From assembly GCA_030246985.1 (NCBI GenBank), contig CP107246.1, forward strand, positions 870,282-934,281: a stretch of DNA of 64,000 nucleotides, given 5' to 3'. Below, in pieces: positions 13,784 through 56,894 of this stretch. The position numbers and the translations under genes are program-made. The DNA comes from Candidatus Nitricoxidivorans perseverans. Lineage in GTDB: Bacteria > Pseudomonadota > Gammaproteobacteria > Burkholderiales > Rhodocyclaceae. Position 1 is the stretch's first letter, and the number at the start of each line of letters is the position of its first letter. A model generated the notes under the pieces. That model was not told the DNA's origin. It saw only the letters and a list, made by a program, of their open reading frames with translations, and made no database searches.

Positions 13784-14386
13784 TTATCCGACCACGGTGA
13801 CGTGCTGCTCGTGGCGAAGGGCGGACTCCGGATGGAACAGCCCGGCCAGAGTACTGCTCAGGGTCTTGATCGCTTCCGGCGACTCGATGTCCATGGTCTG
13901 GTCAATCACCCAGAGACGATCCTTTTCAGGCAGGATTTCCCGCAGACAGGCGGCGAAGTAGCGTCGAAAGCCGAAATCGGGACCGTCGGCGCCGTAGTCG
14001 AATTCGGCATACTCGCCGCTTCTGCGGTTGAAGAGATCGACGAAGCCCCGGCGGCAGGCGCCCGGTTCGACGCTGGACAGCAGCATCCCGTTGTTCTCCT
14101 CGACGATCTCGGAGAGCCTTTTGGCCAGCGCGGCGGTGAACTCGGCGCGCCGGCCCGGATCGAGTTCCCGGTGGGCGATACGATCCGCCGCCAGAGCCAT
14201 GAAGACGAGAAACTCGCAGACGAAGTCGAAATAGGGCCGGCCGATGTCGATATCGTAGTCGGCCCTGCGCATGCGCTTGATCGACTCGATGGCCAGCTTC
14301 CAGGCCAGCACGGCCACCACCGAGGCCAGCGTCGCGGGGGAACGCCGGCCCTTGGCGTGGAAGCGGTTGCGGACGCGGATAGCCAA
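13784..14386 (-). CDS. Conserved hypothetical protein in the rspA cluster
   Basis: 200 aa, starting at a TTG that immediately follows the rspA stop (TGATTG). An AAGG about 10 bases upstream suggests coupled translation. The sequence is mainly helical and soluble. Recognisable segments are ESIKRMRRADYDIDIGRPY, a middle part rich in acidic residues, and a C-terminal DRLWVIDQTMDIESPEAIK. I do not recognise a family. Its place as the last gene of a four-gene leftward cluster divergent from dsrA suggests a role tied to sulfur metabolism, but nothing in the sequence gives an activity. The GGDEF gene on the other strand ends 43 bp away. Confidence 0.7.
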   Translation of the reverse strand: MAIRVRNRFHAKGRRSPATLASVVAVLAWKLAIESIKRMRRADYDIDIGRPYFDFVCEFLVFMALAADRIAHRELDPGRRAEFTAALAKRLSEIVEENNGMLLSSVEPGACRRGFVDLFNRRSGEYAEFDYGADGPDFGFRRYFAACLREILPEKDRLWVIDQTMDIESPEAIKTLSSTLAGLFHPESALRHEQHVTVVG

Positions 14387-14719
14387 TCAGTAGCCAGCCT
14401 TGCCGTAGGGCTTCGGCAGTCCCGCGATCTTTACCGCTTGTTTGGCCGGGCCGTCGTGCGGGAACAGGTCGTACATCTTCTTGGAATCCGCGCCAGGCAT
14501 GACCGTCTCCATGTCCTTCATGAAATTGCGGAAATTCGGCGTCTTGCCGTCTTCCTGAAACTTTTCGCGGAAGTAGTTGATGACCGTCCAATGATCGTCG
14601 GTCAGCGCGATGCCTTCCGCCTCGGCGATCACCGCCACAGCCTCCTCTGAAAAGTCCGGCTCCAGCAGGAAGCCGTAGTCGTCGACCTCTTTTTCTTCAC
14701 CATTGATGACGTAGCCCAT
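14387..14719 (-). CDS. DsrC-family protein without redox cysteines (RspA type)
   Basis: 110 aa from the ATG at 14719, which has AAAGGAGAG 8 bases upstream. The whole DsrC/TusE fold is recognisable: INGEEKEVDDYGFLLEP at the N-terminus, TDDHWTVINYFREKFQ in the middle and KQAVKIAGLPKP at the end. In true DsrC the last block carries two cysteines (ACKIAGLPKP and a penultimate Cys). Here the first is Val and the tail is YGKAGY, so both are missing. Published classification of the family separates DsrC (two Cys), TusE (one) and RspA (none); this fits RspA. A sulfur-carrier role is excluded; a binding or regulatory role is an inference. Confidence 0.88.
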   Translation of the reverse strand: MGYVINGEEKEVDDYGFLLEPDFSEEAVAVIAEAEGIALTDDHWTVINYFREKFQEDGKTPNFRNFMKDMETVMPGADSKKMYDLFPHDGPAKQAVKIAGLPKPYGKAGY

Positions 14720-14755
14720 AAGGTTCTCTCCTTTCACTTAGTGATCACGAAAAAA

Positions 14756-15364
14756 TCATTTCCCGACGGCGACGACCGACCGGTGCGGCACGAATATCCC
14801 GCAGCCGCGCTTGCGCTCGCCGCCCAACCCTTCGCGCTGCACCCGCAGCGATTCCTCCTCGCCGATCCCGTGCAGCATCAGGCTGAAACCGCTCCAGACC
14901 GTCCCGCTGCCCGATCCTTTCCGGGACTTGCCGCAAAGCATGGGAACGGAGACGCCCATCGCCGCGAGAAGCCACTTGCATGTCTCCACGAAGAGGACTT
15001 CGTCCTCCTCCTCCACGGTGACGAAGGAAGAATACAACACACTGGCCGGCGCCAGCTCGCGAGCCCTGGCCGCCCCAACCGTCACCTCGCCGCCCAGGTC
15101 GAGGCGCGCGCCGGAGAGTCGCGAGGCCTTCGCCAGCCGTCCGCGCGACAGGCGCAGGATCAGGTGGGAGTGCCGCGACAGGGTAATCTCGCCCGTGCCC
15201 GTATCGGAGCCGACGCGATGCAGGGGATGAATGCCGGCCGCCGGCTCGTCGGCCAGCCAAGGCAGACAGCCGCAAACCTGACGAAAGAGGGGATCGGCAT
15301 AGTCCGCCGTCACACTCCGCCCGGAAAGGGCGAAGGAGAGGTCCAGGATGTCGTCGTCGCTCAT
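14756..15364 (-). CDS. Orphan Cas6/Cmx6-like RAMP protein
   Basis: 202 aa. The ATG at 15364 overlaps the stop of the preceding gene (ATGA). The order of segments matches the Cas6/Cmx6 family: LDLSFALSGRSV, CLPWLADEPAAGIHPLH, a central LFVETCKWLLAAMGV with LCGKS, SGFSLMLHGIGEEESLRVQ, and the glycine-rich loop GLGGERKRGCGIFVPH near the C-terminus. In CRISPR Cas6 enzymes the first motif usually carries a His (recalled as DH-x-Y); here the same place reads ADYAD, so the catalytic His may be absent. No CRISPR array or other cas gene is visible. The assignment rests on motif memory, not a search. Confidence 0.72.
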   Translation of the reverse strand: MSDDDILDLSFALSGRSVTADYADPLFRQVCGCLPWLADEPAAGIHPLHRVGSDTGTGEITLSRHSHLILRLSRGRLAKASRLSGARLDLGGEVTVGAARARELAPASVLYSSFVTVEEEDEVLFVETCKWLLAAMGVSVPMLCGKSRKGSGSGTVWSGFSLMLHGIGEEESLRVQREGLGGERKRGCGIFVPHRSVVAVGK

Positions 15365-15576
15365 TCGATAGGCTGCCGCTGCGCCCATTCGGCCATGGCC
15401 GCGGCGAAGCGCCGCGCCGTCAGCGGATCGATGTCGAAAATGGTGAATCGGCTTCCTTCCCGGATGCGCAGGCGCAGCATGGGCATGCCGCCCGCCTCGA
15501 ACTCGATCTGCTGGAGCTCGATTTCCTGGTTGCCGATGGGAACCCTGAACTTGTCCAGGCGGGTAATCTTGTCCAC
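15361..15576 (-). CDS. Small conserved hypothetical protein, first gene of rspA cluster
   Basis: 71 aa with a GTG start. It is soluble and mixed alpha/beta, with VPIGNQEIELQQIEF, RFTIFDIDPLTARRFAAAM and EWAQR. I do not recognise the family. The stop overlaps the start of the Cas6-like gene by 4 bp, so the two are translationally coupled. It is the promoter-proximal gene of the cluster, divergent from dsrA across 276 bp. Confidence 0.65.
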   Translation of the reverse strand: MDKITRLDKFRVPIGNQEIELQQIEFEAGGMPMLRLRIREGSRFTIFDIDPLTARRFAAAMAEWAQRQPIE

Positions 15577-15674
15577 GGAAGGTCTTGTGCGCCGATATAT
15601 GGGTGGGGCACTATCGCACCGTCGATGGACATGCGACCATTACCGCGTTGGCGTGCCGGGGCATACTTCTTTCG

Positions 15675-15690
15675 GGTAGGTTACCCTACC
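15675..15690. promoter_or_regulatory. Inverted repeat between the divergent rspA cluster and dsrA
   Basis: GGTAGG-TTAC-CCTACC, a perfect 6-bp inverted repeat in the middle of the 276-bp divergent region (15577-15852). A CTACC element recurs at 15710-15714. This is the best candidate for a regulator site controlling dsr and the divergent cluster. Nothing else distinct is seen in this region apart from the dsrA ribosome binding site (GAGGAG, about 10 bases before the ATG). Confidence 0.35.
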
Positions 15691-15852
15691 CCCTCCGAAG
15701 CATTCAATCTACCTGCCGGGGGTATGGTGCCCGACGCCAGCCCTCCTTAACATCGCTTCGACTCGGAACTCAAGGTTGCCCGTACGATCCGCCACGATAT
15801 GCGTGGGGCGTGACGGGTTTCCCCCCAACAGCCCAGAAAGAGGAGACGTCTC

Positions 15853-17148
15853 ATGGCCAAGCCGATGCATCCCACCCCCCTGCTGGACGAGCTCGAAAAA
15901 GGCCCCTGGCCGAGCTTCGTCACCGGCCTCAAGCGCCTGGCGAAAGACAACGACATGGCGGTCGACCTGCTCGGCCAGCTGGAGCATTCCTACGAGACCC
16001 GCATGGGTCACTGGAAGGGCGGCACGCTCGGCGTCGTCGGCTACGGCGGCGGCATCATCCCGCGCTTCTCCGAGATCAAGAATCCGGACGGCAGCTACAA
16101 GTTTCCCGATGCCGGCGAATTCCACACGCTGCGCATCATGCCGGCCGCCGGCATGCATTACGACACGGGCACGCTTCGCCAGATGTGCGACATCTGGCAG
16201 GAGCACGGCTCCGGCCTGATCGCGCTGCACGGCCAGTCCGGCGACATCATGTTCCAGGGCGCGTCCAACGAGAATGTCCAGAAGGCTTTCGACGCGTTCA
16301 ACGAGATGGGCTTCGATCTCGGCGGCGCCGGCCCGGCCCTGCGCACCTCCGCTTCCTGCATCGGCGCCGCGCGCTGCGAGCAGTCCTGCTTCGACGAAGC
16401 CAAGGCGCACCACCTCGTCATCAACAAGTTCCTGGACGACCTGCACCGCCCGGCGCTGCCCTACAAGTTCAAGTTCAAGTTCTCCGGCTGCCCGAACGAC
16501 TGCACGAACTCCATCCAGCGCTCCGACTTCGCCACCATCGGCACCTGGCGCGACAACATCCAGACCGATGACGCGCTGGGCAAGAAGTGGTTCGCCAAGC
16601 ACGGCATGAACGAGCTGGTCAACGATGTCATCGGCATGTGCCCGACCCGCGCCCTCCAGATCAAGGCGACCAAGGACGTCAGGAAGTCCGCCGAGATTTC
16701 CAGCGTCGCGCTGGACGAAGCGCAGTCCCTGGAAGTCGACAACAAGAGCTGCGTGCGCTGCATGCACTGCATCAACGTCATGACCGGCGCCCTGGCGCCC
16801 GGCAAGGACAGGGGCGTGTGCATCCTGATCGGCGGCAAGAGCGTTCTGAAGATCGGCGCCACCATGGGCTCCCTCATCGTCCCCTTCATGCGACTCAAGA
16901 CGGACGAGGATTGGGAGAATTATCTCGACCTGGGTCAGCGCGTGATCGACTTCTTTGCGGAAAACGCCCTCGAGCACGAGCGCACCGGCGAGATGATCGA
17001 GCGCATCGGCCTGGCCAACTTCCTGGAAGGCATCGAAGTCGAAATCGACCCCAACATGATCAACCGGCCGCGCATGAATCCCTACGCCAACATGGCGGGC
17101 TGGGACGAGGAAGTGGCGAAAGCCGAGGCCCGCAAGGCGGCTGCCTGA
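15853..17148 (+). CDS. dsrA: Dissimilatory sulfite reductase alpha subunit (oxidative type)
   Basis: 431 aa. Together with DsrB it holds siroheme and [4Fe-4S] centres and, in sulfur oxidisers, releases sulfite from DsrC-bound sulfur in the cytoplasm. The siroheme/cluster motif is split over SCIGAARCEQSC (about residues 174-185) and SGCPNDC (about 213-219). An inserted ferredoxin domain follows, with SCVRCMHC (about 299-306). ATG start with a strong GAGGAG site. First gene of a compact 15-gene locus on the plus strand; the gap to dsrB is 31 bp. Confidence 0.97.
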   Translation: MAKPMHPTPLLDELEKGPWPSFVTGLKRLAKDNDMAVDLLGQLEHSYETRMGHWKGGTLGVVGYGGGIIPRFSEIKNPDGSYKFPDAGEFHTLRIMPAAGMHYDTGTLRQMCDIWQEHGSGLIALHGQSGDIMFQGASNENVQKAFDAFNEMGFDLGGAGPALRTSASCIGAARCEQSCFDEAKAHHLVINKFLDDLHRPALPYKFKFKFSGCPNDCTNSIQRSDFATIGTWRDNIQTDDALGKKWFAKHGMNELVNDVIGMCPTRALQIKATKDVRKSAEISSVALDEAQSLEVDNKSCVRCMHCINVMTGALAPGKDRGVCILIGGKSVLKIGATMGSLIVPFMRLKTDEDWENYLDLGQRVIDFFAENALEHERTGEMIERIGLANFLEGIEVEIDPNMINRPRMNPYANMAGWDEEVAKAEARKAAA

Positions 17149-17179
17149 TCCAAACGAATACTGACGGAGACAGACGAAA

Positions 17180-18253
17180 ATGGCTCAACCTCAAGTCCGC
17201 AAGCCGATCGAAGGCTTCCTCGACAACAAGAAGTTCCTGCACCCGAAGTTCGCCGCCAACTACGGTAACTGGAAGACCCACGACCGCCCGCGCCCCGGCG
17301 TTCTGCACCACGTCTCCAACTCCGGGGACGAGGTCTGGTCGGTGCGTGCCGGCACGCAGCGCCAGATGGACCACTACACGGTTCGCGCACTCTGCGACAT
17401 CGCCGATAACTTCGGCGAAGGCTTCATGCGCTTCACCATCCGTTCCAACGTCGAAATCCCCGTTTCGAGCGAAGCCAAGGTCGCTCCGCTGATCGCCGAG
17501 CTCGAGAAGAACGGATTCCCGGTCGGTGGCACGGGCAACTCCGTGTCCATGGTCGCCCACACCCAGGGCTGGCTGCACTGCGACATCCCCGGCACCGACG
17601 CCTCCGGCGTGGTCAAGTCGATGATGGACGAGCTGATCGAGGAGTTCAAGCACGAGCAGATGCCCAACCGCGTGAAACTGTCCACCTCTTGCTGCGAGAT
17701 CAACTGCGGCGGCCAGGCCGACATCGCGGTCGTCGTGCAATACACGAAGCCGCCGAAGATCAACCACGACCTCGTCTCCGCGATCTGCGAACGCCCGACC
17801 GTCGTCGCGCGCTGCCCGGTGGCCGCCATCCGCCCGACGATCGTCAACGGAAAGCCCTCGCTCGAGGTCGACGAGAAGAAGTGCGTCTGCTGCGGCGCCT
17901 GCTATCCCCCCTGCCCGCCCATGCAGATCAACGATCCCGAGTCCAACAAGGTCGCGATCTGGGTCGGCGGCAAGAACGCCAACGCGCGCGGCAAACCGAC
18001 CTTCCACAAGCTGGTCGCCGCCGGCCTGCCCAACAACGCGCCGCGCTGGCCCGAGGTCAACGCCGCCGTCAAGAAGATCCTCATGACCTACAAGGAAGAC
18101 GGCCGTCCGTGGGAGCGCATGATCGACTGGATCGATCGCATCGGCTGGCCCGCCTTCTTCGAGAAGACCGGCCTGCCCTTCACCAAGTACATGATCGACG
18201 ACTGGCGCGGCGGCCGTGTCAACCTGAACGCCTCCACCCACCTCCATTTCTGA
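17180..18253 (+). CDS. dsrB: Dissimilatory sulfite reductase beta subunit
   Basis: 357 aa. The siroheme-site region contains STSCCEINCGGQADIAVV (about residues 171-188). The ferredoxin domain has CVCCGACYPPCPPM (about 235-248), which binds the second [4Fe-4S] cluster. The start is an ATG with GGAGA 11 bases upstream. Partner of DsrA in the alpha2beta2 enzyme and interaction site for the tail of DsrC. Length and motif order are normal. Confidence 0.97.
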   Translation: MAQPQVRKPIEGFLDNKKFLHPKFAANYGNWKTHDRPRPGVLHHVSNSGDEVWSVRAGTQRQMDHYTVRALCDIADNFGEGFMRFTIRSNVEIPVSSEAKVAPLIAELEKNGFPVGGTGNSVSMVAHTQGWLHCDIPGTDASGVVKSMMDELIEEFKHEQMPNRVKLSTSCCEINCGGQADIAVVVQYTKPPKINHDLVSAICERPTVVARCPVAAIRPTIVNGKPSLEVDEKKCVCCGACYPPCPPMQINDPESNKVAIWVGGKNANARGKPTFHKLVAAGLPNNAPRWPEVNAAVKKILMTYKEDGRPWERMIDWIDRIGWPAFFEKTGLPFTKYMIDDWRGGRVNLNASTHLHF

Positions 18254-18263
18254 AGAGTCATCC

Positions 18264-18656
18264 ATGATCTTCTCGATACTTGTCAACGAAGGCCCCTACA
18301 CGCACCAGGCTTCGGACACCGCCTTCAACTTCACGATGGCGGCGCTGGCCAAGGGGCACAGGATATTCCGCGTGTTCTTCTACCACGACGGCGTCAACAA
18401 CGGCACACGCCTCACCACGCCGCCCCAGGATGACCGCAACATCGTCGCCCGCTGGTCGAAGCTCGCCCAGGAAAGCGAACTGGACCTCGTGGTATGCGTC
18501 GCCGCAGCCCAGCGCCGCGGTATCGTGGACGATGGCGAGGCCAAGCGCAACGGCAAGGACGCCACCAACCTGGCGCCCGGCTTCCGCATCTCCGGCCTTG
18601 GCCAGCTGATCGAGGCCGGCATCCAGTCCGACCGCATCGTCACGTTCGGCGACTGA
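18264..18656 (+). CDS. dsrE: Sulfur-relay protein DsrE
   Basis: 130 aa, TusD/DsrE fold. The catalytic cysteine stands in LDLVVCVAAAQRRGI (about residue 78), the position known to accept persulfide sulfur in DsrE. With DsrF and DsrH it forms the alpha2beta2gamma2 relay that passes sulfur to DsrC. The start ATG lies 11 bp after dsrB. Confidence 0.95.
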   Translation: MIFSILVNEGPYTHQASDTAFNFTMAALAKGHRIFRVFFYHDGVNNGTRLTTPPQDDRNIVARWSKLAQESELDLVVCVAAAQRRGIVDDGEAKRNGKDATNLAPGFRISGLGQLIEAGIQSDRIVTFGD

Positions 18657-18666
18657 GGAGAACGAC

Positions 18667-19032
18667 GTGAGCACAATCAAGAAATTTTTGTTCGTCAATC
18701 GCAAGGCGCCTTACGGCACCGTCTATGCCCTGGAGTCCCTCGAAGTAGTGCTGATCGGCGCCGCCTTCGAACAGGACGTGTCGCTGGCCTTCATGGACGA
18801 CGGCGTCTACCAGCTCAAGAAGGGCCACCAGACCAAAGGCATCGGCATGAAGGGCTTCGAGAAGACTTACGGCGCCCTCGAGGACTACGACGTCACCAAG
18901 CTCTACGTGGACCAGGAGTCGATGGCCGCCCGCGGCCTTACCCCCGACGATCTGTGCGTGCCGGTTGAAATGATGCCGCGCGCCGATATGGGCAAGCTGA
19001 TGGAAGAGCAGGACGTGGTCCTGTCGTTCTAA
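18667..19032 (+). CDS. dsrF: Sulfur-relay protein DsrF
   Basis: 121 aa, TusC-like subunit of the DsrEFH complex; GTG start after GAGGAGAA. The conserved beginning KKFLFVNRKAPYGTVYALE is typical. It has no active-site cysteine equivalent to DsrE; the only Cys is in DDLCVPVEMMPR. Structural role inferred from the family. Confidence 0.94.
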   Translation: MSTIKKFLFVNRKAPYGTVYALESLEVVLIGAAFEQDVSLAFMDDGVYQLKKGHQTKGIGMKGFEKTYGALEDYDVTKLYVDQESMAARGLTPDDLCVPVEMMPRADMGKLMEEQDVVLSF

Positions 19033-19046
19033 GGGAGACACTCGCA

Positions 19047-19343
19047 ATGCTGCACATCATCAATAAATCGCCCCTGGATCGGCCGTCCCTGGACACCGTC
19101 CTGCAAACCGCCGCATCGGGCGCCATCCTGCTGATCGAGGACGGCGTCTATGCTGCAACCTGCGGCAATGCCGTCGAAGCCAGGCTCAAGAACGCAATGG
19201 GCACGCTCAAGGTCTATGCACTCGGCCCGGACCTCGATGCCCGCGGCGTTGCCGATCGCGTGACGGAGGGCGTGACCGTCGTCGGTTATGACGGTTTCGT
19301 CGACCTCGTCGCCGAGCATAAAACCAGCCAGTCGTGGCTTTGA
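19047..19343 (+). CDS. dsrH: Sulfur-relay protein DsrH
   Basis: 98 aa, TusB-like third subunit of DsrEFH. The hallmark ILLIEDGVYAAT stands at about residues 27-38, followed by KVYALGPDLDARG. The cysteine reported near position 20 in the Allochromatium protein is not present; the corresponding segment reads LDTVLQTA. The only cysteine follows the LIEDGVYA motif. Sulfur transfer would then rely on DsrE, as in TusBCD. Confidence 0.93.
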   Translation: MLHIINKSPLDRPSLDTVLQTAASGAILLIEDGVYAATCGNAVEARLKNAMGTLKVYALGPDLDARGVADRVTEGVTVVGYDGFVDLVAEHKTSQSWL

Positions 19344-19401
19344 CGATCGGCTACCCGACCCATCCCCATTTATCAGGAATCCCCTGCAAGGAGAAACAAA
19401 C

Positions 19402-19737
19402 ATGGCTGCTATCGAACTGAACGGTAAATCCTACGAAGTGGACGAAGAAGGCTATCTGGTCAACCTGGCCGACTGGGACGAAGCCGTCGCCGGCGTGCTG
19501 GCGCAGCAGGAAAACGTCGCCATGACCGACCAGCACTGGGAAGTCGTCAACTTCCTGCGCGACTATTACAACGAGTTCCAGATCGCCCCGGCCGTGCGCG
19601 TGCTGACCAAGGCCATCGGCAAGAAGCTCGGTCCGGACAAGGGCAACAGCCAGTACCTGTACGAGCTGTTCCCCTACGGCCCGGCCAAGCAGGCGTGCAA
19701 GATCGCCGGCCTGCCGAAGCCCACGGGTTGCATCTAA
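19402..19737 (+). CDS. dsrC: Sulfur carrier DsrC
   Basis: 111 aa from the ATG preceded by AAGGAGA. Both functional cysteines are present at the end: KQACKIAGLPKPTGCI (Cys at about 99 and penultimate 110). DsrC receives sulfur from DsrEFH, is the DsrAB substrate, and its trisulfide is reduced or oxidised by DsrMKJOP. It sits in the standard place between dsrH and dsrM. Compare the cysteine-free paralogue at 14387-14719. Confidence 0.97.
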   Translation: MAAIELNGKSYEVDEEGYLVNLADWDEAVAGVLAQQENVAMTDQHWEVVNFLRDYYNEFQIAPAVRVLTKAIGKKLGPDKGNSQYLYELFPYGPAKQACKIAGLPKPTGCI

Positions 19738-19827
19738 TCCGGACTTCGAATCGCGACGGGGCCTTGCCCCGCCCGATTTTCCTCCGAAGCGGTTTCCCCG
19801 CGCCACGAGACTGAGTTACCGCCGCCC

Positions 19828-20550
19828 ATGAGCCTATTCTTCGCGATCCTGTTCTACGCCGCCAGCGCGATCCTGGTCGCCGGGCTGGCGGCAAAGATCG
19901 TCGGCTTCGCGCGCACGCCCGCGCCGCTGAACATCCCGACCACGCCGGCGCCGACCACGCCGGCCGGCGTCGTCTTCCGCATGTTCCGCGAGGTCGTCTT
20001 TTTCGAGAGCCTGTTCAAGGGCAACCTCTGGATCTGGGCGATGGGCGCGATGTTCCATTTCGGCCTGGCCCTGGTGCTGGTCCGCCACCTGCGATACTTC
20101 ACCGAGCCGGTGTGGACCTGGGTCGCTATCGCCCAGCCCTTCGGCATGTACGCCGGCTTCCTGATGGCGGCGGGTCTCGCCGGCCTATGGGCGCGGCGCT
20201 TCCTGGTCGAGCGCATCCGCTACATCTCGACCGCCTCCGATCACCTGATGCTCGCCCTGCTGCTCGTCATCGCGCTCACGGGGCTGGGCATGAAGTTTCT
20301 GATGCACACCGACATCGTCGCGGTGAAGGCCTTCTTCCTCGGCCTGATGCGCTTCGACATCCAGTCGCTGCCCGTCCATGTCGGCCTGTACATCCACCTG
20401 TTCTGCGTCGCCGCGCTGATGATCGTCTTCCCGTTCAGCAAGTTGCTGCACGCGCCCGGCGTCTTCTTCAGCCCGACCCGCAACCAGGCCGACAATCCGC
20501 GCGAAGTGCGCCACCTGGCGCCTTGGGCAGCCCAGTTGGAGAAAAACTGA
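19828..20550 (+). CDS. dsrM: DsrM membrane cytochrome b
   Basis: 240 aa, NarI-like with about five transmembrane helices and His residues placed for heme b (for example GAMFHFGLALVLVRHLRYF, and HVGLYIHLFCVAALM). It exchanges electrons between the quinone pool and DsrK within DsrMKJOP. The gap to dsrK is one base, so translation is tightly coupled. Confidence 0.94.
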   Translation: MSLFFAILFYAASAILVAGLAAKIVGFARTPAPLNIPTTPAPTTPAGVVFRMFREVVFFESLFKGNLWIWAMGAMFHFGLALVLVRHLRYFTEPVWTWVAIAQPFGMYAGFLMAAGLAGLWARRFLVERIRYISTASDHLMLALLLVIALTGLGMKFLMHTDIVAVKAFFLGLMRFDIQSLPVHVGLYIHLFCVAALMIVFPFSKLLHAPGVFFSPTRNQADNPREVRHLAPWAAQLEKN

Positions 20551-20551
20551 C

Positions 20552-22093
20552 ATGGCCGGACCCGAGATCAAGGCGCCCGCCTTCCGCGAGTTCCCCACCG
20601 TGCCGAAGATCCAGCCGGATTCGATGGCGCATCTGAAGTGTTACGTCGCCAGCGAGAAGATCCAGGGGGAGCTGGGCTTCCCCGGCAAGCTGGCGGACAA
20701 CTGGCAGGAAACCCACGACGCCGTCATCAAGCGGATGGGCGAGCTGCTGGAGAAATACCGGTCGCTGCGGGTGTTCATGGACGCCTGCGTACATTGCGGC
20801 TCCTGCACCGACAAGTGCCACTTCTTCATCGGCACGGGCGACCCGAAGAACATGCCGGTCGCGCGCCAGGAGTTGCTGCGCTCGGTCTATCGCCGCTACT
20901 TCACGCCGGCCGGCAAGATGTTCCCCGCCCTCGTCGGCGCGCGCGACCTGACGCGCGAAGTGCTCGACGAGTGGTACAACTACTTCTGGCAATGCACGGA
21001 GTGCCGTCGCTGCTCGGTGTTCTGCCCCTACGGCATCGATACCGCCGAGGTCACGATGGCCGCGCGCGAACTGCTCGACATCGCAGGCTACGGCCAGAAA
21101 TACTCCAACGAGATCATCGGCAAGGTTCACCGCGTCGGCAACAACCTCGGCCTGCCCGGCCCGGCGCTGATCGACACGCTGACCGGCCTCGAAGAGGACG
21201 TCAAGGACGACACCGGCTGCGACGTCCGCTATCCGGTGGATGAAAAAGGCGCCGAAGTCCTGCTGGTCACGCCCTCGGCCGACTTCTTCGCCGAGCCGCA
21301 CATCGACAGCACCATCGGCTACGGCAAGGTCTTCCACGCCGCCGGCATCTCCTGGACCTTCTCGTCCAAGGCGTCCGAGGCCGGCAACTTCGGATTGTTC
21401 ATCGGCAACTACGAGCAGATGCGCAAGATCGCGCTGCGCGTGCGCGAAGCCGCGCTGGAACTCGGCGTCAAACGCATCGTGGTCGGCGAGTGCGGCCACG
21501 CATGGCGCGCCGCCTACGCCTTCTGGAACACGCTCACCGGCATCGGCGCCGGCGCCAACGACCCCTTCGCGGTCGAACTCCAGAAGCAGCTCGACCCCCG
21601 CTACAAGCAGCCCTCGCACATCTGCGAGGTCACCTGGGATCTGATCCAGCAAGGCCGGCTCAAGTTCGACAAGGAAGCGAACGACCACCGCATCATCACC
21701 TTCCACGATTCCTGCAACGTCGCGCGCGGCTCCCGCATGGGGGACTACCCCGGCGGCCAGTTCGACATCCCGCGCAACATCATCCGCGCCGTGGCCAACA
21801 AGTTCGTCGACATGGCGCCCGAGACCATCGGCGAGAAGACCTTCTGTTGCGGCGGCGGCGGTGGCGTGCTGAACGATGAACTGATCGAGCTTCGCGTCAA
21901 GGGCGCGCTCCCCCGCATGGAGGCCCTGAAGCGCGTGGTGGACGACCACGGCGTCAACTTCATGGCACTGATCTGCGCGATCTGCAAGGCGCAGTTCACA
22001 AAGGTGGTGCCCTATTACGGATTCAAGAGCGGCATGATCGGCGGCGTGCACCAGCTCGTCAGCACGGCGATCAAGCTCGGCAACGAACAGTAA
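20552..22093 (+). CDS. dsrK: DsrK, HdrD-like iron-sulfur subunit
   Basis: 513 aa. Two ferredoxin-type motifs (CVHCGSCTDKC at about 77-87, CTECRRCSVFCPYG at about 149-162) and a CCG domain with FHDSCNVARGS and FCCGGGGG (about 431). It is the catalytic subunit of DsrMKJOP expected to act on DsrC cysteines, using the noncubane cluster known for HdrB/D-type CCG proteins. Cytoplasmic side of the complex. Confidence 0.95.
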   Translation: MAGPEIKAPAFREFPTVPKIQPDSMAHLKCYVASEKIQGELGFPGKLADNWQETHDAVIKRMGELLEKYRSLRVFMDACVHCGSCTDKCHFFIGTGDPKNMPVARQELLRSVYRRYFTPAGKMFPALVGARDLTREVLDEWYNYFWQCTECRRCSVFCPYGIDTAEVTMAARELLDIAGYGQKYSNEIIGKVHRVGNNLGLPGPALIDTLTGLEEDVKDDTGCDVRYPVDEKGAEVLLVTPSADFFAEPHIDSTIGYGKVFHAAGISWTFSSKASEAGNFGLFIGNYEQMRKIALRVREAALELGVKRIVVGECGHAWRAAYAFWNTLTGIGAGANDPFAVELQKQLDPRYKQPSHICEVTWDLIQQGRLKFDKEANDHRIITFHDSCNVARGSRMGDYPGGQFDIPRNIIRAVANKFVDMAPETIGEKTFCCGGGGGVLNDELIELRVKGALPRMEALKRVVDDHGVNFMALICAICKAQFTKVVPYYGFKSGMIGGVHQLVSTAIKLGNEQ

Positions 22094-56702: not shown

Positions 56703-56743
56703 GGGCGGTTAGCTCAGTGGTAGAGCACTGCCTTCACACGGCG
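56703..56743 (+). pseudogene. 5' half of tRNA-Val(CAC), cut by integration
   Basis: The acceptor strand GGGCGGT, D arm GCTC/GAGC and anticodon arm CTGCC with loop TTCACAC and GGC are present. After GGCG the sequence changes to TGGCGATAG and no T arm or acceptor partner follows. The anticodon would be CAC. The missing half should lie at the far end of the integrated element, outside the window. The last 14 bases (GCCTTCACACGGCG, 56730-56743) are also present in the complete tRNA at 56820. Confidence 0.85.
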
Positions 56744-56790
56744 TGGCGATAGTGGTAAAGCGTTAGTCAGTTTGGATATATGTAGTTTCC

Positions 56791-56818
56791 ATATCAAGTG
56801 CATGTAACCACTTGATAT
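56791..56818. repeat. Inverted repeat at left end of element
   Basis: ATATCAAGTG-CATGTAAC-CACTTGATAT, a perfect 10-bp inverted repeat directly before the element-borne tRNA. The right arm with its flank (GTAACCACTTGATAT) recurs with two changes at 62918-62932 near the integrase, so it may be an integrase or excisionase binding site. It might also form a hairpin in the run-through transcript. Confidence 0.5.
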
Positions 56819-56819
56819 T

Positions 56820-56894
56820 GCGTCGGTAGCTCAGTGGTAGAGCATCGCCTTCACACGGCGGGGGTCGGGGGTTCGAAACCCTCCCGACGCACCA
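56820..56894 (+). tRNA. Element-borne tRNA-Val(CAC)
   Basis: A complete 75-nt cloverleaf: acceptor GCGTCGG/CCGACGC, D arm GCTC/GAGC, anticodon stem TCGCC/GGCGG with loop TTCACAC (anticodon CAC), T stem GGGGG/CCCTC with loop TTCGAAA, discriminator A and encoded CCA. Acceptor and T stem differ from the host half-gene at 56703, so it is not a simple duplication. It can replace the tRNA destroyed by integration. Confidence 0.92.

Follow-up and report, generated by a model that had tools for sequence, protein, structure and literature searches.

The window, the whole 64,000-nucleotide stretch of Candidatus Nitricoxidivorans perseverans DNA analysed here, carries a gene of the Cas6 family of RAMP proteins (TIGR02807/PF09559) on the minus strand at 14756..15388. 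It forms part of a module that adjoins a dsr gene cluster. The first gene of the module, at 15361..15576 (−), encodes a 71-amino-acid DUF6967 protein (PF22295, by family scan) and overlaps the Cas6-like gene. A DsrC/TusE-family paralogue that has no cysteine and ends in VKIAGLPKPYGKAGY is encoded at 14387..14737 (−), and the next gene, at 13784..14386 (−), encodes a conserved helical protein. Divergent from the module are dsrA at 15853..17148 (+) and dsrB at 17180..18253 (+), both identified by family scan. These are followed by 18264..19343 (+), which we take from gene order to be dsrEFH and whose genes served as tblastn queries, and by a canonical dsrC at 19402..19737 (+), named by eye, whose product has both C-terminal cysteines and ends in ACKIAGLPKPTGCI. 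Module and dsrA are divergent, and the intergenic region that separates them spans 15577..15852 and contains the palindrome GGGTAGG-TTAC-CCTACCC at 15674-15691.

The Cas6-like open reading frame is 210 amino acids long from an ATG at 15388 and 202 amino acids long from a start at 15364, whose ATG shares an ATGA with the DUF6967 stop codon (15361-15363). Translation probably begins at 15364, with 15388 as the alternative. The protein matches TIGR02807 at 128.5 bits (E 3.1e-37; cut-off 98.85) and PF09559 at 158.7 bits (E 2.2e-46; cut-off 26.7), and six PADLOC models match it as well, three for Cas6 and one each for Cas6a, Cas6b and Cas6b2. An AlphaFold2 model, built from an alignment with 56 relatives from named contigs, has a mean pLDDT of 90.8. 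The top Foldseek match is 8fcu_B, the Cas6 chain of a type I-B CAST Cascade (E 7.8e-18, TM 0.84), and the entries at ranks 3 to 35 are likewise Cas6, Cse3 or Cascade. VIA-align superposes 8fcj_B on the model with Z 25.4 and an rmsd of 1.8 over 192 residues at 23% identity; the same chain is found by a profile of the dsr-linked Cas6-like family at E 7.9e-33. The C-terminal Gly-rich loop, GLGGERKRGCGIFVPH, is present in the protein and conserved across the family alignment, and it goes together with a predicted RAMP fold. The Cas6/Cmx6 RAMP fold that an earlier note had proposed from the letters alone thus holds in both the profile search and the structure prediction for which that note had called. 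The open reading frame is a real Cas6 homologue.

The gene is not encoded beside cas genes or a CRISPR array but sits in the dsr locus. A search of the 64-kb window for CRISPR-like spaced repeats (seed 14, length at least 23, spacing up to 120) gives none, and nothing in it matches the 3′ end of the host CRISPR repeat at up to one mismatch. At 56710-56863 the window does carry two tRNA-like repeats that are nearly identical and lie 117 bases from each other, probably tandem tRNA genes. The host genome, a single contig of 2,704,353 bases, has one TIGR02807 match and one Cas1 match, the latter approximately 560 kb from the Cas6-like gene. Around this cas1 are cas3, cas5c, cas8c, cas7, cas4 and cas2 and a long array with 37-nt repeats (L032:7059-19001 and L033:1-1432; about 313,000-326,400 of contig C1 of the host genome, G000); a cas6 gene is absent from the locus. 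Two small open reading frames between cas7 and cas4 look, as judged by eye, like a toxin-antitoxin pair of the RelE/HigA type. The absence of CRISPR that had been noted earlier therefore stands for the window but not for the genome.

Host Cas5c, Cas8c, Cas7 and Cas1c exceed the type I-C cut-offs of the NCBI models, and Cas5c does so at 233.9 bits against a TIGR01876 cut-off of 85. In type I-C systems the repeats are cut by Cas5c. Because the locus is of type I-C and has its own Cas5c, the host genome should not need the window protein for CRISPR. The earlier note had held that a CRISPR-Cas locus elsewhere in the genome without its own Cas6 would speak against a repurposed protein. Such a locus is literally present, yet it does not overturn that proposal, because Cas5c scores over its cut-off and, at E 0.001, Cas1 goes unmatched in 40 of the 58 genomes of the order sample that carry the Cas6-like gene. 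The assignment of a locus to type I-C by cas8c together with a missing cas6 is also made in a passage of PMC5944118.

The linkage to dsr extends well beyond the window. The order sample of 300 genomes contains 58 with a Cas6-like match, one per genome and all above the cut-off, and no internal stop occurs within the match in any of them. The same sample has 64 dsrA-positive genomes, consisting of 61 above the cut-off and three with strong partial matches (G014, G161, G261). dsrA is present in 58/58 carriers vs 6/242 non-carriers (Fisher 1.4e-55, uncorrected for kinship), so that 58 of the 64 dsrA-positive genomes have the Cas6-like gene and six do not. Cas1, on the other hand, is matched in 18/58 carriers vs 96/242 others (p 0.23), and the Cas6-like gene is not associated with it. 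In the neighbourhoods of all 58 carriers dsrA lies in the same locus and is divergent from the Cas6-like gene; the gap between the two start points reaches approximately 4.7 kb in L054 and 2 kb in L051 and L058. The Cas6-like gene belongs to the dsr locus and is no stray, and the earlier observation of a gene beside dsr without a tie to CRISPR is borne out.

GTDB genomes searched for the peptide CG[IV]F[IV]PHK yield 345 relatives. The 80 best were retained, so the set is biased towards kin of the query and proteins bearing the scan motif. Names among these best 80 include Sulfuricella, Sulfurimicrobium, Sulfuriferula, Thiobacillus, Tepidiphilus, Hydrogenophilales and similar, or unclassified proteobacteria; Thiobacillus thioparus DSM 505 (L134) has the module. 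In 77 of these 80 loci dsrA lies within 2.3 kb of the Cas6-like gene (low end to low end), and in the other three the Cas6-like gene starts less than 600 bases from the end of the locus sequence. The class sample has Cas6-like matches in 118 of 369 genomes (112 above the cut-off). Forty of these matches were inspected, picked non-randomly for a good match and a complete genome. All 40 genomes are dsrA-positive; the dsr operon is in the Cas6-like locus in 33, and in the other seven dsrA is elsewhere in the genome. Cas1 is found in four of these seven, on other contigs or 280 kb from the Cas6-like gene. The phylum-level sample has the gene in only 5 of 398 genomes, all in the order of the window, but it under-reports the class, as the 118/369 of the class-level sample indicates. 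Viral contigs searched by patterns of the window protein contain no relative.

A first tree was made from 145 Cas6 sequences, reduced to 121 by dropping near-copies at 97% identity; its 114 dsr-linked rows fall on one side of one branch (SH-aLRT 99). A second tree adds 40 class rows, giving 154 dsr-linked rows (114 beta and 40 gamma), with an outgroup of six CRISPR-linked cyanobacterial rows and one row from a Gloeobacter plasmid. The 154 rows again lie on one side of one branch, with SH-aLRT 99 and a length of 1.57. Both trees are quick ones made without bootstrap, long branches are flagged and the outgroup is small. From this topology we infer the direction of change, and a single recruitment of the Cas6-like gene from CRISPR into dsr is the simplest reading, although both the "once" and the "CRISPR into dsr" stand on a thin outgroup, the CRISPR-linked relatives being drawn from cyanobacterial plasmids only. 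Distances between Cas6-like proteins correlate with those between DsrA proteins over 139 loci (rho 0.72; 0/999 permutations as high). The correlation is 0.57 within beta and a weak 0.24 within gamma.

The catalytic His of Cas6, which we take to lie in the first helix region, aligns with Tyr30 of the window protein (210-amino-acid numbering), in the motif ADYAD. The window protein thus does not have the catalytic residue, which is itself not a strict feature of Cas6, the CAST Cas6 8fcj_B having Asn; all six CRISPR-linked rows have His. The alignment of this site, also suggested earlier, confirms the Tyr for His that had been read in the window but limits its meaning. His is retained in 118 of the 154 dsr-linked rows, 79/114 beta and 39/40 gamma, and loss of His as a general property is not borne out. 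The non-His beta rows have Tyr (16), Asn (16), Ser (2) or Asp (1), and the tree requires a minimum of 11 switches between His and another residue. Within the window's own family Tyr is found in the window and in L049, and His in L022, L027 and L036. As judged from the alignment, the Tyr of the window is real but represents one lineage state among several.

Further positions are fixed or near-fixed in the 154 dsr-linked rows, namely R79 (154), E130 (153), G153 (153), R73 (152), K203 (151) and H202 (141). None of the six CRISPR-linked rows has E130, G153, H202 or K203, an Arg at the position of R73 is found in one of them (L073), and R79 and the Gly-rich loop are common to both sets. The pattern looks like that of a Cas6-like protein placed under constraint for a new task with the old Gly-rich loop retained. 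The dsr-linked proteins are mostly not basic, with a median pI of 6.5 in beta and 5.9 in gamma and 7.0 for the window protein. All six CRISPR-linked proteins are basic (median 9.4), the Gloeobacter protein has a pI of 9.3 and the 8fcj_B stretch one of 9.2. Charge is a weak test of RNA binding, however, because host Cas5c is also near neutral (pI 6.8).

Of the partner genes, DUF6967 is found in 54 of the 300 order genomes, all 54 dsrA-positive, and in 50 of the 58 carriers of the Cas6-like gene. Four of the six dsrA-positive order genomes without the Cas6-like gene retain DUF6967 and the helical protein. In two genomes of one genus (L022, L036) DUF6967 and the Cas6-like protein form one open reading frame, and this fusion suggests that the two act together. 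Of the 40 class loci, 32 have a 62-amino-acid gene close to the Cas6-like gene and on its strand, and homology of the gamma 62-amino-acid protein to DUF6967 is not established by hhalign (probability 18.9). The helical protein has an all-helical model with pLDDT 88. It gives no Pfam match and no Foldseek match at E up to 0.001 against the PDB, and three of its relatives give sub-threshold matches or nothing against Pfam.

The DsrC paralogue matches PF04358 at 104.2 bits (cut-off 24.9) and TIGR03342 at 85 bits. DsrC proper has two redox cysteines in its C-terminal arm; the paralogue of the window has no cysteine at all. In two sets of relatives the whole protein has no cysteine in 41/58 and 48/78, one in 14/58 and 23/78, and two or three in 3/58 and 7/78, counts into which some canonical DsrC picked in error and some over-long reads have entered. 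The tails of the relatives end in GKGGY or RKGGY. A set of 20 beta tails comprises 19 with the GKGGY ending and a single canonical DsrC (L116); three of the 20 still carry the inner-site cysteine. In the class loci a DsrC-like gene is directly downstream of the Cas6-like gene in 33 of 40. No cysteine occurs in the last 22 residues of 32 of these 33 reads, an upper bound, with at least two reads (L187, L190) two residues long and half of the tails viewed. RspA is a name given to Cys-less DsrC proteins.

Two further types of gene recur near the module in other genomes, and neither is found in the window. A TauD-like sequence is present within 4 kb and on the same strand as the Cas6-like gene in 56/80 beta and 30/40 class loci; at L168:6796-7689 a TauD-family dioxygenase gene (PF02668) lies between dsrA and the Cas6-like gene. 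A rhodanese-like sequence is similarly placed (within 4 kb, same strand) in 69/80 beta and 3/40 class loci, and at L076:9012-9887 a rhodanese-like sulfurtransferase gene, named by eye, directly follows the DsrC paralogue.

The intergenic region upstream of dsrA was searched for a possible RNA target. Of 95 non-redundant leaders, 52 contain GGGTAGG on either strand (mononucleotide-shuffle mean 4.2) and 31 contain GAATGATGG (mean 0.2). One of four leader motifs tested is also found in three of the six dsrA leaders from genomes without the Cas6-like gene, and because of this recurrence the motifs are read as DNA sites. The palindrome at 15674-15691 looks like a transcription-factor site. For the dsrA/DUF6967 intergenic region, RNAalifold in sliding windows over nine clade alignments gives no recognisable structure common to the clades; several large z-scores stem from near-zero energies and are meaningless. 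Folding z-scores of leader windows have means from −0.23 to −0.95 with no clear peak. The leader of the window folds at −21.0 kcal/mol between −75 and −15 of dsrA, with a hairpin that is not common to the relatives viewed. Rfam gives no match over 14300-20600 at E up to 1. With no general leader hairpin or terminator, no conserved leader structure and no Rfam match, no RNA target was found. Terminator-like hairpins of −12 kcal/mol or lower are present before dsrA in 11 of the 95 leaders (shuffled mean 2.1), that of the window not among them. Five of the 11 (L004, L012, L016, L078, L082) belong to one Sulfuricella-type clade and have the hairpin and a T-run directly before dsrA, which suggests attenuation in that clade.

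It is proposed, with slightly less than even confidence, that the protein is a Cas6-derived factor of the dsr system, probably recruited once in beta- and gamma-proteobacterial sulfur oxidisers, which no longer serves CRISPR and has an accessory or regulatory role with its partners. Family and fold, the presence of dsrA in every carrier of the order sample, the shared locus, the lack of association with Cas1, the single branch and the near-fixed residues absent from the CRISPR-linked rows support such a recruited factor, as do the DUF6967 fusion, the cysteine-poor DsrC paralogue adjoining the Cas6-like gene in both beta and gamma loci, and the DNA binding upstream of the dsr cluster stated for A. 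vinosum DsrC. From these features we infer a complex of the Cas6-like protein, the Cys-less DsrC and DUF6967, which most likely would be an accessory or regulatory dsr factor. The Cas6-like subunit would bind a particular RNA, which probably is transcribed from the sulfur regulon, and the His-bearing lineages may cut the RNA that is bound. The Cys-less DsrC, which has none of the usual cysteines on which to carry sulfur, may couple the activity of the Cas6-like protein to the state of the DsrC/DsrEFH relay. The failure to find an RNA target, the weak tracking of DsrA distances within gamma and, as a weak argument, the mostly non-basic charge speak against the proposal. The module is not strictly needed, because 6/64 dsrA-positive order genomes do without the Cas6-like gene. 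In its fullest form, the proposal has Cas6 domesticated as a metabolic regulator in both beta and gamma, with a dedicated ribonucleoprotein of the three proteins sensing the sulfur relay and controlling dsr post-transcriptionally and with catalysis optional; this form is rather unlikely.

A protein-only adaptor, in which the RAMP fold is a scaffold, RNA binding has been lost and the protein is an accessory subunit in assembly or the sulfur relay, is almost as likely as the factor proposed above. It agrees with the acidic to neutral charge, with the repeated replacement of His, with the near-fixed E130 and H202-K203 that are missing from CRISPR relatives, and with partners such as the DsrC paralogue and the rhodanese-like sulfurtransferase gene of the beta loci. 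The almost invariant Gly-rich loop and R79, common with CRISPR relatives, are against it, and the His of 118/154 rows is hard to explain unless the old active site has a role. Maturation of an RNA other than dsr mRNA has also been considered, for example a tRNA-related partnership with the TusE-like paralogue in sulfur-dependent tRNA modification or in cleavage under sulfur stress. Membership of the paralogue in the TusE/DsrC family and solved structures of Cas6 and Cse3 relatives with RNA, as judged by entry titles, would fit, but confinement to dsrA-positive genomes is not expected of a general tRNA factor. TusE relies on a cysteine that the paralogue does not have, and a role of this type is improbable.

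Two explanations keep the protein tied to CRISPR. One has it serve the host CRISPR in trans as the missing Cas6, which the host locus without a cas6 gene might seem to invite. The type I-C nature of that locus with Cas5c over the cut-off, the many carriers with no Cas1 match, the absence of Cas1 enrichment and the invariable dsr linkage in the order sample make this very improbable. The other, a decaying and functionless remnant of a CRISPR locus lost beside dsr, could account for the loss of His in several lineages, and is the least credible of all: the matches in all 58 order genomes are free of stops, several positions are fixed or nearly fixed in 154 sequences, and synteny is retained across two large groups.

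Reverse-Dsr oxidation of sulfur is among the main routes of the sulfur cycle. The occurrence in dsr clusters of a Cas6-family protein with no link to CRISPR points to a role, so far unexplored, in the running or control of this process, and the dsr cluster of most dsrA-positive order genomes (58/64) holds an extra module with a Cas6-like core. If the recruited factor is real, it would represent exaptation of Cas6 into primary metabolism and would offer a handle on control of dsr expression or the sulfur relay. The automatic label "CRISPR-associated protein Cas6" on the core of the module is, at the least, misleading for many genomes and makes CRISPR components seem more numerous in sulfur oxidisers than they are.

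No report of an association between a Cas6-like gene and dsr was found in the open-access full-text literature, a scope outside which most subscription papers fall. Where Cas6 is mentioned in passages of PMC7540712, PMC10952691, PMC5944118, PMC5728499, PMC8889020, PMC10504309 and PMC3368242, the mentions concern CRISPR. Passages of PMC5944118 state that the DsrC of A. vinosum binds DNA upstream of the dsr cluster and describe three extra DsrC-like genes, one of which (THSYN_22565) is numbered near the dsr cluster. Four extra DsrC-family genes of A. vinosum are listed in PMC3368242, where their role is left open. The window paralogue resembles the DsrC/TusE family in its PF04358 and TIGR03342 matches, but its C-terminal cysteines are replaced.

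The closest structural relative, the type I-B CAST Cas6 (8fcj and 8fcu, chain B), shares the full-length fold, the Gly-rich loop and a position without His (Asn). Its source we take to be a cyanobiont of Peltigera membranacea. By entry title it is part of a Cascade-DNA complex, whereas the window gene, 23% identical in its product, belongs to a dsr locus; the dsr-linked family has E130 and H202-K203, which the CRISPR-linked rows do not show. The type I-MYXAN Cas6/Cmx6 proteins of cyanobacterial plasmids belong to the same NCBI family (TIGR02807) and share R79 and the Gly-rich loop. They differ in that six of seven adjoin cas genes, and in being basic, in having His (6/6) and in forming a separate branch. 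The seventh gene, at L074:5974-6762 on plasmid pGMOR1 of Gloeobacter morelensis, has no annotated cas neighbours. It is found near a gene of the PAPS-reductase family, and in the first tree it falls on the dsr-linked side with SH-aLRT 92.
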